NCBI GenBank assembly: GCA_031292195.1
Contig: JARLHP010000026.1
Location: 17,198 to 81,197 of the forward strand
Direction of reading: 5' to 3'
DNA length: 64,000 nucleotides
Source of the DNA: Syntrophobacteraceae bacterium
Lineage (GTDB): Bacteria; Desulfobacterota; Syntrophobacteria; Syntrophobacterales; Syntrophobacteraceae
Shown in pieces: positions 47,920-56,439 of the stretch (position 1 is the stretch's first letter; each line of letters starts with the position of its first letter). The position numbers and the translations under genes are program-made. The notes below the pieces were generated by a model, which ran no database searches, was not told the origin of the DNA, and saw only the letters and a list, made by a program, of their open reading frames with translations.

Positions 47920-48107
47920 GAATTGACCTGCCAAGCGGCTAGCCATAGCAGAAATTTAAGGAAAAGATGAAGGGCGGGGTCCAATGGAAGATGGCGCCCC
48001 CGCCTTTTCTTAATTGAACTACTCGAACGGACTCGTTATATTAAGCCCAACTTGGAGTGCGCATTCAGGGTCTTGCATCAAAACGGACTGATCGAGAGGT
48101 AAGAGTA

Positions 48108-51100
48108 ATGAATTATGATGTTGGAGTTGACGTAGGCTCTGTCAGCATCAACTGCATTATTTTGGACGAAAATCAAAGAATCGTCCTGGAAACTCCCTAT
48201 TTGAGACATTTTGGGCTGGTCTACAAAGAAACACACACCCTTTTGGACAATATCATACGAAAGATCGGCTCAGAATACTCAGGCACGATCAGATCGGTCA
48301 GTTTTACCGGTGTTCACGGTGAACCTCTGGCGGAAAAACTGGGCGCGCCTTATGAAGTCGAGACCATCGCACAGGTGGAGGGGGCCATACACGTCGCGCC
48401 GGGGGTAGGTTCCATCATTACAATGGGGGGCCAGGACGCGGCGATTTTCCAGTTGGCTCACAACAGCGGCCAGTGGCGGCTGGAGTCTTTCAACATAAAT
48501 GGTCCATGCGCTTCGGGAACGGGTTCCTTCATTGACCAGCAGGCCGAGAGGCTGGCTCAGTCGATCTACGGGGCCGATTTTTCGATGGGCCAGGATAAGC
48601 TTCAGCAGACGCTGGAAGACTTTATCGAACTGGGTCTAAAGAGCACCTACCCCGCGCCGGTGGCGTGCCGCTGCACGGTTTTCACCAAGTCGGACATGAT
48701 CCACCTGCAGAATAAGGGCGAGAGTCTTTCCAACATCATCGCCGGACTCCACTTCGGCAACGCCGCCAATTATGTGAGCACCATCGTAGGCAACCGGGAA
48801 CTGCTGGACCCGATTATTTTCGTCGGGGGCATGGCTTCCAACCGGCTCCAGGTGAAGGCTTTCCAGCACTATTTTCCCTCTTTGAGCGTCCCCGCCCATC
48901 ACACCTCGATAGGGGCCCTGGGGGTGGCTGTCCAGGCCTCCAAGCAAAAGTGGCGAAACCAGATCGATCTTTCCGGTCTTTTACACGCAGAAACTCAGTC
49001 GGTTGACAGTTTTCCGAGGGCCGAGCGGCTGGAGCTTTCGCTGAGCCGCTTCGACACGGGAAAAGGGTCTTCGCCCTGGGCATGGAAAAAGGGAAAACCG
49101 GTGGAAGCCTACCTCGGTGTGGATATAGGCTCCACCTCCACCAAATACGCGCTGATAAGCGAAAAGGCCCAGATCCTTCACAAATGCTACGTGCCCACGC
49201 GGGGAAAACCGATCGAGGTGACCCAGCAGCTTCTGCGCTCCCTGCAGGAAGAAGTGGGGGGCAAAGTGAAGCTGATGGCGATCGCCACGACGGGGTCGGG
49301 CCGTAATGTGGTGGGCGATTTTCTGAGTTCCGACCTGGTAATCGACGAGATTACGGCGCACGCCCGGGGCGCGGTCCAAACCGATCCCGAAGTGGACACC
49401 ATATTGGAAATCGGCGGCCAGGACTCCAAGTATATCATGATCGAAAACACCCATCCGTTTGATTTTGCCATGAACAAAGTGTGCGCCGCAGGCACGGGCA
49501 GTTTTCTGCACGAACTGGCCAACAAGATGAAGATCAATATAGTCGGGGAATTCCAGGATATAGCGCTTAGCTCGAAGATCCCGATTCATCTGGCGGAGCG
49601 GTGCACGGTATTCATGGAATCAGACCTGGCAAGCTATCTGCAAAAAGGCGGTGAGCGGCAGGACCTGATAGCCGGGCTTTGCTATGCGATAGTCTACAAT
49701 TACCTCAACCGGGTGGTGGAAAAGAGGCGCATTGGCAAGCGCGTCATGTTTCTGGGCGGACCTTCGCTGAACAAAGGAATCGTTGCGGCGTTCGAAAAGG
49801 TGCTCAACCGCGAAGTGCTGGTGCCCGAGCACCGCGAGGTCATGGGGGCGTTCGGGGCGGCCCTGTCCGTCATGGAGCTTTTCAAAAAGGAAGGAATGGA
49901 ATACCGCCGGCGCGATCTCGACCAGCTAGCCGGCATGGCGGTGAACTTTACCGAGAGCATCTGCCATGTGGACAAAAAGTGTCACAACGAATGCAAGCTG
50001 AAAGTCTATAGCTTCGGCGAGCGCAAAAGCGTATGGGGGGGAGACTGCGGCCGTTATGAGACCCGGGCCGAAGGGGGCCGGGAGGTCGATTATTTTGCGG
50101 TGAGGCAGGAGCTTTTCGAAAAGGCCCTGTCGGAAGCCGGAAACCTGCTCACGGAGGCCGAAGCAAGGCGCCAGCCAAAACCGGTTATCGGCATTCCGCT
50201 TGCCTTGCACTCCCTGGAGTGGGGGATCTTTTGGGCCCACCTCTTCTCCGATTTGGGGTTTCCGGTGCTGCTGAGCCCCAGGACCACCAACAAGCTGGCC
50301 TTCCTGGGCGTGGAAAACGTGGTCTCCGAGGTCTGTTTTCCGGTCAAGGTGTTCCACGGGCATGTGCGCTACCTTATGGACCGGGCCGAATACCTCTTTT
50401 TGCCCAATGTGGTGAACGGACCCGTGCCGCAGCGGGAGGAAATCGGATATTTCTGCCCGCTCGTTCAGAGTTCCCAATTCATGAGCAGGTCGGCTCTGAA
50501 CATCCCGGACGGCAGGATCATCCGGCCTTCGCTCTATTTGAAGGAAGGTCCGCAAAACCAGGTCTTCGCCTTTGAAAAGGCCTTTCCCAAAGCGCTAAGA
50601 CCCAAAAGGGCCGAGCTGGAACGGGCCCTTGTGAAGGCGAGCTGCAGGCAGGAGCAATTTCGCCGGGATCTTGTGGCGGTCGGTAGAAGGATCATAGAAA
50701 AAATCGACCCGGCCGAACCGGTTTGGATAGTCACGGGACGTCCTTACAACCTCTATGACGATCGTTTGAACCTGCAGCTGGGAAAGCAGCTGGCAAAGCT
50801 GGGCATAAAGGCCCTGCCGATGGATTTGGTCGATTCGGATGCCGAGGACATGAGCGATTTCAAGCGCATGTTCTGGGGGCTGGGCGCCAGAATCATCCGC
50901 ACGGCCAAAATGATCCTGCGCACCCCCAACTGGTATGGGGTACATCTGACCAATTTCAGTTGCGGGGCCGATTCCTTCATCGAGCATTTTTATCGTCACC
51001 TGCTGGCCGACAAGCCCTCGCTGATACTTGAACTCGACGAGCACAGCGCCGTGGCCGGTCTTCTGACCCGGGTGGAAGCCTACCGCAACGTGGTAAGAAA

Positions 51101-51170
51101 TCTCCAGGAAAAGCGGCTGTCCAGAAAACTCGACCCGGTGGAAGGCAACCCGCTGGAGGAGGCCGGATAG
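48108..51170 (+). CDS. Large acyl-CoA dehydratase activase (BcrAD/HgdC-type, two ASKHA domains + DUF2229-like region)
   Basis: Two actin-fold copies: VGVDVGSVSINCIILD and LGVDIGSTSTKYALIS; CASGTGSFIDQQAERL and CAAGTGSFLHELANKM. Confidence 0.9.
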   Translation: MNYDVGVDVGSVSINCIILDENQRIVLETPYLRHFGLVYKETHTLLDNIIRKIGSEYSGTIRSVSFTGVHGEPLAEKLGAPYEVETIAQVEGAIHVAPGVGSIITMGGQDAAIFQLAHNSGQWRLESFNINGPCASGTGSFIDQQAERLAQSIYGADFSMGQDKLQQTLEDFIELGLKSTYPAPVACRCTVFTKSDMIHLQNKGESLSNIIAGLHFGNAANYVSTIVGNRELLDPIIFVGGMASNRLQVKAFQHYFPSLSVPAHHTSIGALGVAVQASKQKWRNQIDLSGLLHAETQSVDSFPRAERLELSLSRFDTGKGSSPWAWKKGKPVEAYLGVDIGSTSTKYALISEKAQILHKCYVPTRGKPIEVTQQLLRSLQEEVGGKVKLMAIATTGSGRNVVGDFLSSDLVIDEITAHARGAVQTDPEVDTILEIGGQDSKYIMIENTHPFDFAMNKVCAAGTGSFLHELANKMKINIVGEFQDIALSSKIPIHLAERCTVFMESDLASYLQKGGERQDLIAGLCYAIVYNYLNRVVEKRRIGKRVMFLGGPSLNKGIVAAFEKVLNREVLVPEHREVMGAFGAALSVMELFKKEGMEYRRRDLDQLAGMAVNFTESICHVDKKCHNECKLKVYSFGERKSVWGGDCGRYETRAEGGREVDYFAVRQELFEKALSEAGNLLTEAEARRQPKPVIGIPLALHSLEWGIFWAHLFSDLGFPVLLSPRTTNKLAFLGVENVVSEVCFPVKVFHGHVRYLMDRAEYLFLPNVVNGPVPQREEIGYFCPLVQSSQFMSRSALNIPDGRIIRPSLYLKEGPQNQVFAFEKAFPKALRPKRAELERALVKASCRQEQFRRDLVAVGRRIIEKIDPAEPVWIVTGRPYNLYDDRLNLQLGKQLAKLGIKALPMDLVDSDAEDMSDFKRMFWGLGARIIRTAKMILRTPNWYGVHLTNFSCGADSFIEHFYRHLLADKPSLILELDEHSAVAGLLTRVEAYRNVVRNLQEKRLSRKLDPVEGNPLEEAG

Positions 51171-51177
51171 GGCTTGT

Positions 51178-51960
51178 TTCACGCGAAGGTGCGAAGGGGC
51201 GAGGACTGAAGACGCGAAGAACCGAGGGGGAGAAGGGACGGGACGAATTTTGATCTCCCCTGTGGATTGGCTGGGTATGGAGGCTGAGGGGATCGTCGGA
51301 GGTTGGACAGGGCTTGTTTCACGCGAAGACGCGAAGACGCGAAGACGCGAAGGATCAGGCGCAGGGGCATTCTGTTTCAACGGAAATTTATTGTAAGCGC
51401 GCCAGGTTAAGATTCATTCCTGCCGCCTATTCCGCCGACGGCCTGTCATTTTGACCGGCCGTCGTCTCCCGGCCGGTCAAAAAAGAAAGAACTCTCTGTG
51501 CCTCTGTGTCTCCGTGGTGGATTTTCCTGTTTTTACCGTGGGGTCGGGCTTATGGAGATTGAGGAAATCGCCAGGTTGGTGGTAGACTGCGGGTTCAATA
51601 TACATAAACAACTGGGGCCGGGTCTGCTGGAGACAGTCTACGAAGCGGTTATGGCAAAGTTGCTGGCCGACTCCGGTTTTCGCGTGGAACGGCAAAAGCA
51701 GGTACCGATCGTCTTCGGCGGGCTTCAATTCGAGGAAGGATTTCGGGCCGATCTATTGATTGAAGGGAGAGTTCTGGTCGAGATAAAGTCCCTGGAGAAT
51801 CTTGCTCCAGTGCACGGCAAGCAGGTGCTTACTTAGCTGAGACTTCTCAACCTGCCTCTTGGACTGCTCATGAACTTCGGCGCCGCTATGTTTAAAAGCG
51901 GCATCAAGCGCATAGTCAACAATCATTGCGACTTCGCGGCTTCGCGTCTTCGCGTGCACC
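51178..51960. mobile_element. Candidate element: GCGAAGAC-type microrepeat - inverted family A repeat - GxxExxY gene - inverted GCGAAG-type end
   Basis: CGCGAAGACGCGAAGACGCGAAGACGCGAAGG (51325-51356) versus CTTCGCGGCTTCGCGTCTTCGCGTG (about 51931-51956) in opposite orientation; AGGGCTTGTTTCACGCGAAG duplicated near 51170 and 51310; lies between two normally adjacent gene types. Confidence 0.5.
51363..51535 (-). repeat. Repeat family A, copy 4 (inverted)
   Basis: GGGGCATTCTGTTTCAACGGAAATTTATTGTAAGCGCGCCAGGTTAAGA...GACCGGCCGTCGTCTCCCGGCCGGTCAAAAAAGAAAGAACTCTCTGTGCCTCTGTGTCTCCGTGGTGGATTTTCCTGTTTTT. Confidence 0.85.
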
Positions 51961-51970
51961 AGGGTCTGAT
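51552..51970 (+). pseudogene. GxxExxY-family protein gene with in-frame amber codon
   Basis: MEIEEIARLVVDCGFNIHKQLGPGLLETVYEAVMAKLL...FRADLLIEGRVLVEIKSLENLAPVHGKQVLT*LRLLNLPLGLLMNFGAAMFKSGIKRIVNN; TAG at 51834-51836 sits where the family has Tyr. Confidence 0.85.
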
Positions 51971-51991
51971 TTGAGGGGAAATGGAAAAGAA

Positions 51992-53374
51992 ATGACGGTT
52001 CCGGGAAAGCAGCATTTCGGGCGGTTCTACGATCAGGTCAAACAGTTCGATGTTACGGGCAAGACCCTTCTCATTCCAGACATGGCCCCCTTTGCCTCCC
52101 GGCTGCTGGCTTCCTCCTTCCACGCCGTTGGCGTGAACGCCCTGATCATGGAGACTTATAAAGGTCTTTCCCTGGGAAAGGAATTTACCTCGGGAAAGGA
52201 ATGTTTTCCCTGCCAGGTGACCCTTGGAGATATTCTCTATTTTTTGCGCCAGGAAAAAGAAAGGCTGGGGACCGCTTTTGCGCCGGACCAGTACGTATAC
52301 TTTCTGCCCGAAGCGGACGGTCCCTGCCGTTTTGGCATGTACAACAAGATGCAGCGCCTCGTGCTGGACAGGTTCGAGGAATTTCGGGATGTGCCGATAA
52401 CCTATGTTTCGACCAGAAATTCCTATTCGACGGTGGACATCATGCCGGCGGAGGCGGCCTCCATTTTCAGAAGACTGTGCTATGTGACCATAATTATAGC
52501 TGATATACTCGACCGCATAGCATGGCGGGTGCGACCCTACGAACTTCGTCCCGGCTTGACCGATTCCTTCATGGAAAAGGCGCTCGAGGCGTTGGTCGAG
52601 GAAGTCGAGCTCAAGGGCGCTTCCCTGGAGCTCAAAGGTCTATTCGATATTGTCGAAGATGCGGCCTCCACGGCCAAAACATTTATCGACACCCGGCAGC
52701 CCAGGCGTCCGTTGATCGGGATCGTCGGGGAGATTTATGTTCGCACTCATCCGGATTCGAACCAACACATCGTGCGGGTGTTGGAGCGGTTCGGGGGGGA
52801 AGTCGTGGTGGCCTCGATCGGCGAGTGGATAAACTACATAACTTATGATATGGCCAGGGATCAGAAGCGGCGTGTGAAGCTGGCCCTGCTGAAAAAGGAT
52901 GTCGGGCTGCTGAGGGGCGCCCTTAACGACCTGATTCCCACCCAGATCGAAAAATATTATCAAATGGCACGCCAGAGACAGATTTACAATCGCGCGCTGA
53001 AACACTTGGACATTCAAAGAGATCATGCCATATCGATGCTGGAAAAGCGGCTGGACAAGGATCGGCTCTACAGCTTCGATATCGGCACCGAATCGGCTCT
53101 GAGCATCGGGGCTGCGCTCGAACATTTGCACGAAGGTTATAGCGGCATCGTCAACGTATACCCTTTCACCTGCATGCCCAGCGCAGTCTGCACCGCGGTT
53201 CTCAAGCCGCTTCTCAACAAAATGCGTATGCCCTACATCGATGCGCCTTACGATGGGGCCATTCAGCCCAACCGGGAGATCGCGCTACGCACGTTCCTGC
53301 ACCAGGCGAAGCAGCATCTGGAATCCGGCAACTCGGGCAACAGAAACGGCAAGGCAGCAAAATGTCATACTTAA
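51992..53374 (+). CDS. Acyl-CoA dehydratase activase-associated protein (COG3581-like)
   Basis: LLIPDMAPFASRLLASSFHAVGVNALIM...GKECFPCQVTLGDILYFL...FLPEADGPCRFGMYNKMQ...VYPFTCMPSAVC. Confidence 0.85.
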   Translation: MTVPGKQHFGRFYDQVKQFDVTGKTLLIPDMAPFASRLLASSFHAVGVNALIMETYKGLSLGKEFTSGKECFPCQVTLGDILYFLRQEKERLGTAFAPDQYVYFLPEADGPCRFGMYNKMQRLVLDRFEEFRDVPITYVSTRNSYSTVDIMPAEAASIFRRLCYVTIIIADILDRIAWRVRPYELRPGLTDSFMEKALEALVEEVELKGASLELKGLFDIVEDAASTAKTFIDTRQPRRPLIGIVGEIYVRTHPDSNQHIVRVLERFGGEVVVASIGEWINYITYDMARDQKRRVKLALLKKDVGLLRGALNDLIPTQIEKYYQMARQRQIYNRALKHLDIQRDHAISMLEKRLDKDRLYSFDIGTESALSIGAALEHLHEGYSGIVNVYPFTCMPSAVCTAVLKPLLNKMRMPYIDAPYDGAIQPNREIALRTFLHQAKQHLESGNSGNRNGKAAKCHT

Positions 53375-55648: not shown

Positions 55649-56024
55649 GGCAGTCCTCCCTTGGCCGTATCCTCCCGGTTTTGGCATTGCTCTCCAAATA
55701 CCGGTTTCCTGCCTTGAAATGTAAGCCGCCTTTCGGCAAATGAAAACCCCTGGCTGCCGGTGGGGAGGCTGGATGGGACCAAAGGCATGAGGCACAGTAT
55801 TCAAGGCCTGAAAGGCCGGCCCGGCGCCAGGGGCGCCCGAAGGAAATGGTATCGGTCGTTTTTTATCCTCGAAGTGATATCTATCTTTCCGCGCAAAAAT
55901 AATTATGTTAGTTATGAAAGATTGCAGGGGGAATTGGCGCAGGGTGGGTCTGTTCGTAAATCAGGTTAGCTCATCATATAATGAGTGCGGAGTCAGCGGT
56001 CAAAACGAAAGGAGATTTGTCTAA

Positions 56025-56348
56025 ATGATACACTTGTCGGAAAAGGCAGAGGACGTCTTGAAAGACTATTTCAAGGAAAAGGAAGTCACCCCGATCCGGA
56101 TTTTTCTCCAGACCGGTGGGTGAGCCGGGCCGTCCCTGGCAATGGTTCTGGATGAACCAAAAGGAACGGATGATGTGTTTAAGATCAACGGTTTTACCAT
56201 GATGGTCGACAAGGATCTTCACGAAAAGACAAAGGACATAACCGTAGATTATGTCTCCTACGGCATGGGTTCGGGCTTCCGAGTGGCGTCCGAAATTCCG
56301 GTGGCCGGAGGTGGTGGAGGCGGATGTGGCTCCTCGTGTAGCTGCTGA
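56025..56348 (+). CDS. HesB/IscA-like protein with in-frame UGA (candidate selenoprotein)
   Basis: MIHLSEKAEDVLKDYFKEKEVTPIRIFLQTGG(UGA)AGPSLAMVLDEPKGTDDVFKINGFTMMVDKDLHEKTKDITVDYVSYGMGSGFRVASEIPVAGGGGGGCGSSCSC; TGA 56121-56123; RBS AAAGGAG upstream. Confidence 0.88.
56144..56158 (+). promoter_or_regulatory. Candidate bacterial SECIS hairpin
   Basis: GGTTC-TGGAT-GAACC, stem 5 / loop 5 with G in loop, starting 21 nt 3' of the UGA. Confidence 0.6.
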
Positions 56349-56394: not shown

Positions 56395-56423
56395 GGGCCC
56401 TCCCGATTCGTCGGGGAGGGCCC
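56395..56423 (+). repeat. Strong hairpin between the HesB-like gene and lspA (possible terminator or attenuator)
   Basis: GGGCCCTCCCGATTCGTCGGGGAGGGCCC; not followed by a T-run. Confidence 0.6.
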
Positions 56424-56439
56424 GATCCATAGAATTCCA

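Follow-up and report, generated by a model that had tools for sequence, protein, structure and literature searches.

An IscA/HesB-like gene with a conserved in-frame UGA, predicted to encode a selenoprotein, in a Syntrophobacteraceae bacterium

The gene at positions 56025-56348 of the DNA analysed here almost certainly encodes an IscA/HesB-like Fe-S protein in which an in-frame UGA at 56121-56123 is decoded as selenocysteine (Sec). The DNA, which we call the window, is a stretch of 64,000 nucleotides taken in its entirety from a Syntrophobacteraceae bacterium, whose genome is a draft assembly of 311 contigs. The hesB-like frame runs from 56025 to 56345 on the plus strand, comprises 107 codons, and is open apart from the TGA at 56121-56123. 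With this TGA read through, the protein is MIHLSEKAEDVLKDYFKEKEVTPIRIFLQTGG-U-AGPSLAMVLDEPKGTDDVFKINGFTMMVDKDLHEKTKDITVDYVSYGMGSGFRVASEIPVAGGGGGGCGSSCSC, an alternative rendering of the same frame being MIHLSEKAEDVLKDYFKEKEVTPIRIFLQTGG-U-AGPSLAMVLDEPK...GGCGSSCSC. Direct reading of the sequence confirmed the positions that an earlier sequence-only reading had given for the frame, the in-frame UGA, the motif and a downstream hairpin, GGTTC-TGGAT-GAACC, which starts 21 nt past the UGA as had been claimed. The features of the locus are as follows.

56008-56014 (approximate), plus strand: Shine-Dalgarno-like AAAGGAG, about 10 nt 5' of the ATG at 56025, read from the sequence
56025, plus strand: ATG start of the hesB-like gene, from direct sequence reading
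56025-56348, plus strand: predicted gene for a selenoprotein of the IscA/HesB family (107 residues including one Sec, followed by a TGA stop), matching NF038090 and Pfam Fe-S_biosyn
56121-56123, plus strand: UGA codon, predicted to encode Sec as residue 33; TGA in 50 of 50 Sec-type homologues at this column
56143-56159, plus strand: putative bSECIS apical hairpin with stem TGGTTC/GAACCA, loop TGGAT and G at loop position 2 (TGGTTC 56143-56148, loop 56149-56153, GAACCA 56154-56159, from sequence reading)
56325-56345, plus strand: C-terminal CGSSCSC motif with Cys101, Cys105 and Cys107, probable other metal or cluster ligands
56346-56348, plus strand: terminal TGA stop, from direct sequence reading
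56395-56424, plus strand: GC-rich inverted repeat in the hesB-like/lspA intergenic region, GGGCCCTCCC-GATTCGTCG-GGGAGGGCCC, read from the sequence

The read-through protein matches the NCBIfam model NF038090, whose short name, IscA_HesB_Se, itself marks the family as selenium-linked. The match scores 112.1 bits against a cut-off of 85 and spans the whole length (protein residues 1-103, profile 1-101). The protein also exceeds the cut-off of Pfam Fe-S_biosyn (32.9 bits, cut-off 26.3), lies far below that of the IscA equivalog model (36 bits, cut-off 150), and scores 44.9 bits against TIGR01911 HesB_rel_seleno, for which the curated cut-off is 66.35, indicating that it represents a sister subfamily and is not a TIGR01911 member. 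TIGR01911 is the model cited for HesB-like selenoproteins (PMC13188914, PMC9312934). The assignment to the HesB-like family made by the sequence-only reading is thus upheld for an IscA/HesB selenoprotein as defined by NF038090, but does not extend to the model cited in the literature. As that reading had pointed out, a mechanical ORF list covers only 56142-56348 (68 aa) and misses the N-terminal half; its expectation that automatic annotation would truncate the gene is not a given for current NCBI annotation, since NF038090 covers exactly the subfamily of this gene. The start of the mechanical ORF at 56142 would fit a locus in which the TGA is a true stop, separating a 32-residue peptide from a 68-aa protein that begins at this ATG. 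We regard such an arrangement as very improbable, given that the 68-aa frame begins inside the family profile and lacks profile residues 1-39, that the ATG at 56142, which lacks a clear ribosome site, overlaps the putative SECIS stem, and that the fused protein is the conserved unit, with a Cys-containing paralogue in the same genome forming a single uninterrupted frame.

Among sequences in the PDB, the nearest to the read-through protein are Aquifex AQ_1857 and IscA (1r94, 1s98, 1x0g). When aligned, Sec33 occupies the position of the Cys in the E. coli IscA motif SGCSG (1r94, 1s98), the first cluster-ligand Cys, and the counterpart of the C-terminal CGSSCSC in AQ_1857 is GCGSSFSC. In an alignment of 28 sequences, Cys101 is invariant and Cys105 and Cys107 are at least 90% conserved, so that Sec33 and these three Cys residues would supply the ligand positions expected of an A-type carrier. 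The cluster or iron ligands of IscA are Cys35, Cys99 and Cys101, and the spacing of the C-terminal Cys motif in the present protein differs from the CGC of IscA. An AlphaFold2 model (28 family members) has a pLDDT of 84, and its best Foldseek matches are 1x0g, 1r94 and 2d2a, by name IscA with [2Fe-2S], IscA and SufA, consistent with an IscA (HesB) fold; for 1x0g the E value is 7e-7 and the TM-score 0.67-0.70. The tail of the model, residues 95-107, which carries the C-terminal Cys ligands, is disordered (pLDDT <50), and ligand geometry therefore cannot be judged from it.

The TGA is widely conserved. Of the 54 distinct homologues that we assembled, 50 have TGA and four have TGC or TGT (L021, L035, L046 and L086) at a single shared alignment column, and the in-frame UGA is thus aligned with Cys of homologues. 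The 50 TGA homologues come from several families of the phylum and from many independent assemblies, and the TGA form is present in Desulforhabdus sp. TSK and in single-contig genomes. When 297 genomes of the phylum were sampled, 127 had matches above the NF038090 cut-off, mostly of the TGA form, with one in-frame TGA in most of these matches. In same-genus comparisons, where estimable, dN is low and dS much higher on both sides of the TGA; for L054, dN/dS values are 0.013/0.31 upstream and 0.032/0.75 downstream. These values indicate, at the level of sequence comparison, that purifying selection acts on the protein both upstream and downstream of 56121-56123. Two more distant IscA/HesB-like frames, L089 (G007:C314:417-638, motif GAGUKSHIEL) and L087 (G057:C445:16834-17106, motif GGUACTASL), also have a TGA at the same position and are possibly further Sec subfamilies.

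In a draft assembly of 311 contigs, a one-base error could convert TGC or TGT to TGA, and the sequence-only reading had itself named such an error as grounds for abandoning its proposal. The TGA would then have arisen by nonsense mutation, or through faulty sequencing or assembly, in what is otherwise an ordinary iscA-like gene of the Cys type. We assign this explanation a negligible probability: TGA is common to the 50 distinct homologues across genera, dozens of relatives having been assembled independently, and the hairpin is conserved only together with the TGA. Cross-genus conservation of the TGA refutes the error or nonsense reading, and its combination with low dN on either side excludes a pseudogene or sequencing error.

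We next consider the hairpin downstream of the UGA. Published bSECIS criteria are a loop of 3-9 nt, a stem of 4-16 bp, a G among the first two nucleotides of the loop, a UGA-loop spacing of 16-37 nt and an MFE of at most -7.5 (PMC13188914). The putative element falls within all of these limits, with a 5-nt loop (UGGAU), a 6-bp stem and a UGA-to-loop distance of 25 nt, and its MFE of -7.6 kcal/mol (56136-56165, a 30-nt window) barely reaches the threshold. Compared with shuffled sequences, the folding energy of the single sequence stands out only slightly (z = -2.1 for a 44-nt stretch and -0.5 for 66 nt), and the hairpin on its own is thus weak evidence; an Rfam scan of the hesB-like region gave no meaningful match. 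Comparison among homologues is more informative. Every one of the 50 TGA homologues, which contribute 29 distinct hairpins, has Watson-Crick pairing at all five inner positions of the stem; being related, these homologues do not represent 50 independent events. Sliding the partner strand by 1-4 nt as a control yields 5-49% of pairs, as opposed to 91% in register, and none of the four Cys homologues, the same-genome Cys paralogue among them, keeps all five inner pairs. One pair has undergone a compensatory exchange from T-A (U-A) to C-G, with GTT/GAA in 34 homologues, GCT/GAG in 16, and no exceptions; the route is a change of codon 41 from GTT (Val) to GCT (Ala) accompanied by a synonymous change of codon 44 from GAA to GAG. 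The GCT/GAG state is seen in more distant families, f5 among them, and recurs in the L084/L085 lineage. Codons within the hairpin are frozen, Val codon 41 being GTT in 34/34 and Leu codon 42 being CTG in 50/50, while Val and Leu codons are mixed elsewhere in the same TGA-form genes. The compensatory exchange and the frozen synonymous codons back the earlier bSECIS reading, and the alignment indicates that the hairpin at 56143-56159 is conserved far beyond chance and is under RNA-level selection.

The genome also possesses the components expected of a bacterial selenoprotein producer, namely selA, selB, selC and selD, the absence of which the sequence-only reading had likewise said would count against it. 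The genes found are as follows.

Contig C260: selA, 626 bits
Contig C61: selB, 368 bits
Contig C272 (G000:C272:19072-19995, locus L010): selD, 386 bits, with one in-frame TGA (AAG-U-AAK)
Contig C195: tRNA-Sec, 74 bits, anticodon TCA (UCA)

The selD product is itself probably a Sec-containing selenophosphate synthetase. Among the genomes of relatives, selA is present in 60 of 61, including every carrier of the TGA form. A scan for tRNAs covering part of the genome found tRNA-Trp with anticodon CCA and the TCA anticodon on tRNA-Sec only. Decoding of the TGA as Trp, or general read-through under a reassigned code, has hardly any likelihood: any code requires that the frame be read through, but the tRNA-Trp found has the CCA anticodon, the same gene ends in TGA as do those of many relatives, the Cys forms have Cys and not Trp at the aligned residue, and a putative SECIS is present.

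Returning to Sec decoding, we propose that SelB would recognise the hairpin at 56143-56159 and deliver Sec-tRNA(UCA) to the UGA at 56121-56123, with the second UGA, at 56346, leading to termination as it has no hairpin element. Sec would thereby replace the first conserved cluster-ligand Cys of a small A-type (IscA/HesB-like) protein. Sec33 and Cys101, Cys105 and Cys107 may bind iron or an Fe-S cluster in the manner of the three IscA Cys residues, and the protein may carry or transfer clusters, or act as a redox sensor, in an anaerobe with many Fe-S enzymes. We infer Sec insertion in this bacterium itself from its sequence, and a role in cluster assembly from homology.

We also compared the gene neighbourhoods of relatives. 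The genes rng, an unassigned ORF, the hesB-like gene and lspA occur together, wholly or partly, in some genomes of the same genus (L052, L054, L056, L057, L059), and this order is not kept outside the genus among the loci compared; the neighbourhoods of the Sec-form genes at these loci give no consistent lead to a client. In the window, 48057-53374 holds a gene for a large CoA enzyme activase of the BadF/BcrD type (DUF2229); next come an ORF of 482 aa, for which Pfam gave no match at E <= 0.001, and then an RNase E/G gene. The inverted repeat at 56395-56424 has no T-tract and was not scored by a terminator scan; as read from the sequence, it suggests that the hesB-like gene and lspA may be separate transcription units. 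Elsewhere in the order, one family has selA 1.5-2 kb upstream of its hesB-like gene. We rejected a selA-hesB-like operon there because an oppositely oriented MFS transporter ORF lies between the two genes (regions G031 and G039).

A search of the source genome with NF038090 returned three copies. Searching the same genome with PF01521 returned nothing, reflecting the limited sensitivity of that profile. The same-genome Cys paralogue (C120:946-1248, minus strand, locus L088) is directly preceded by the end of an hdrA-like frame and by an mvhD/flpD-type gene, and a Cys paralogue in a second genome of the genus (L127, G005:C164) likewise follows hdrA and mvhD/flpD, whereas the Sec copy stands alone near lspA. 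For the Cys-type NF038090 paralogue, a client role in Hdr/Mvh cluster assembly is possible. Also at L088 (1371-2333, minus strand) is a 321-aa ORF that combines an FlpD/MvhD domain with a C-terminal ArsR-type HTH (HTH_5), which may be a genuine fusion or an effect of the assembly.

Tandem Sec and Cys IscA/HesB copies, no more than about 1 kb apart on the same strand, were observed in eleven genomes from three other families of the Desulfobacterota (f20, f38 and f45; loci L090-L100 in G222, G170, G142, G070, G262, G323, G095, G190, G216, G303 and G338). In these pairs the non-TGA copies were confirmed to have Cys, the Sec copies have a bSECIS-like hairpin, and the hairpin is mostly not kept in the Cys copies. 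This arrangement suggests paired isoforms, with either back-up or a division of labour. A broader idea, which we put forward as speculative and rather unlikely, is that Sec33 is a true selenolate Fe-S ligand in an A-type carrier and that Desulfobacterota keep paired selenium-dependent (Sec) and selenium-independent (Cys) carriers, some in tandem and, in this genus, with the Cys form beside hdrA-mvhD/flpD, that divide clients such as Hdr-type electron-bifurcating enzymes. Where a genome has matching Sec and Cys copies, the two form a natural pair for assessing the contribution of selenium at an Fe-S ligand position.

In 2006 the HesB-like selenoprotein figured among 25 bacterial selenoprotein families, with listings for Syntrophobacter fumaroxidans, Syntrophus aciditrophicus, Desulfovibrio, Geobacter and others (Zhang et al., PMC1794560), bearing out the sequence-only reading's statement that the family had been reported. 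An archaeal HesB-like selenoprotein has been labelled with 75Se, and its disruption mutant fixes nitrogen normally (PMC11097638). The cited literature gives the HesB-like selenoprotein no known function, which makes the family worth pursuing. The gene at 56025-56348 is a well-supported further member of the family reported in 2006. With NF038090 it shares the whole-length match, the TGA at the Sec site, the UxGPSL motif and the C-terminal Cys motif, and it has no feature that sets it apart from that family. Like the proteins listed in 2006, it is predicted to contain Sec and comes from the same deltaproteobacterial group; the likeness to the S. fumaroxidans protein is drawn through that listing and not by sequence, and the present gene comes from a separate MAG. 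TIGR01911 HesB_rel_seleno proteins are homologous and have the UxGP motif in common with it, although its score lies below their cut-off. Finally, the predicted fold is the same as that of E. coli IscA (1r94, 1s98) and 1x0g, with Sec33 placed at the SGCSG Cys, and the protein differs from E. coli IscA, to which it is about 26% identical, in that Sec would replace Cys at the first ligand.
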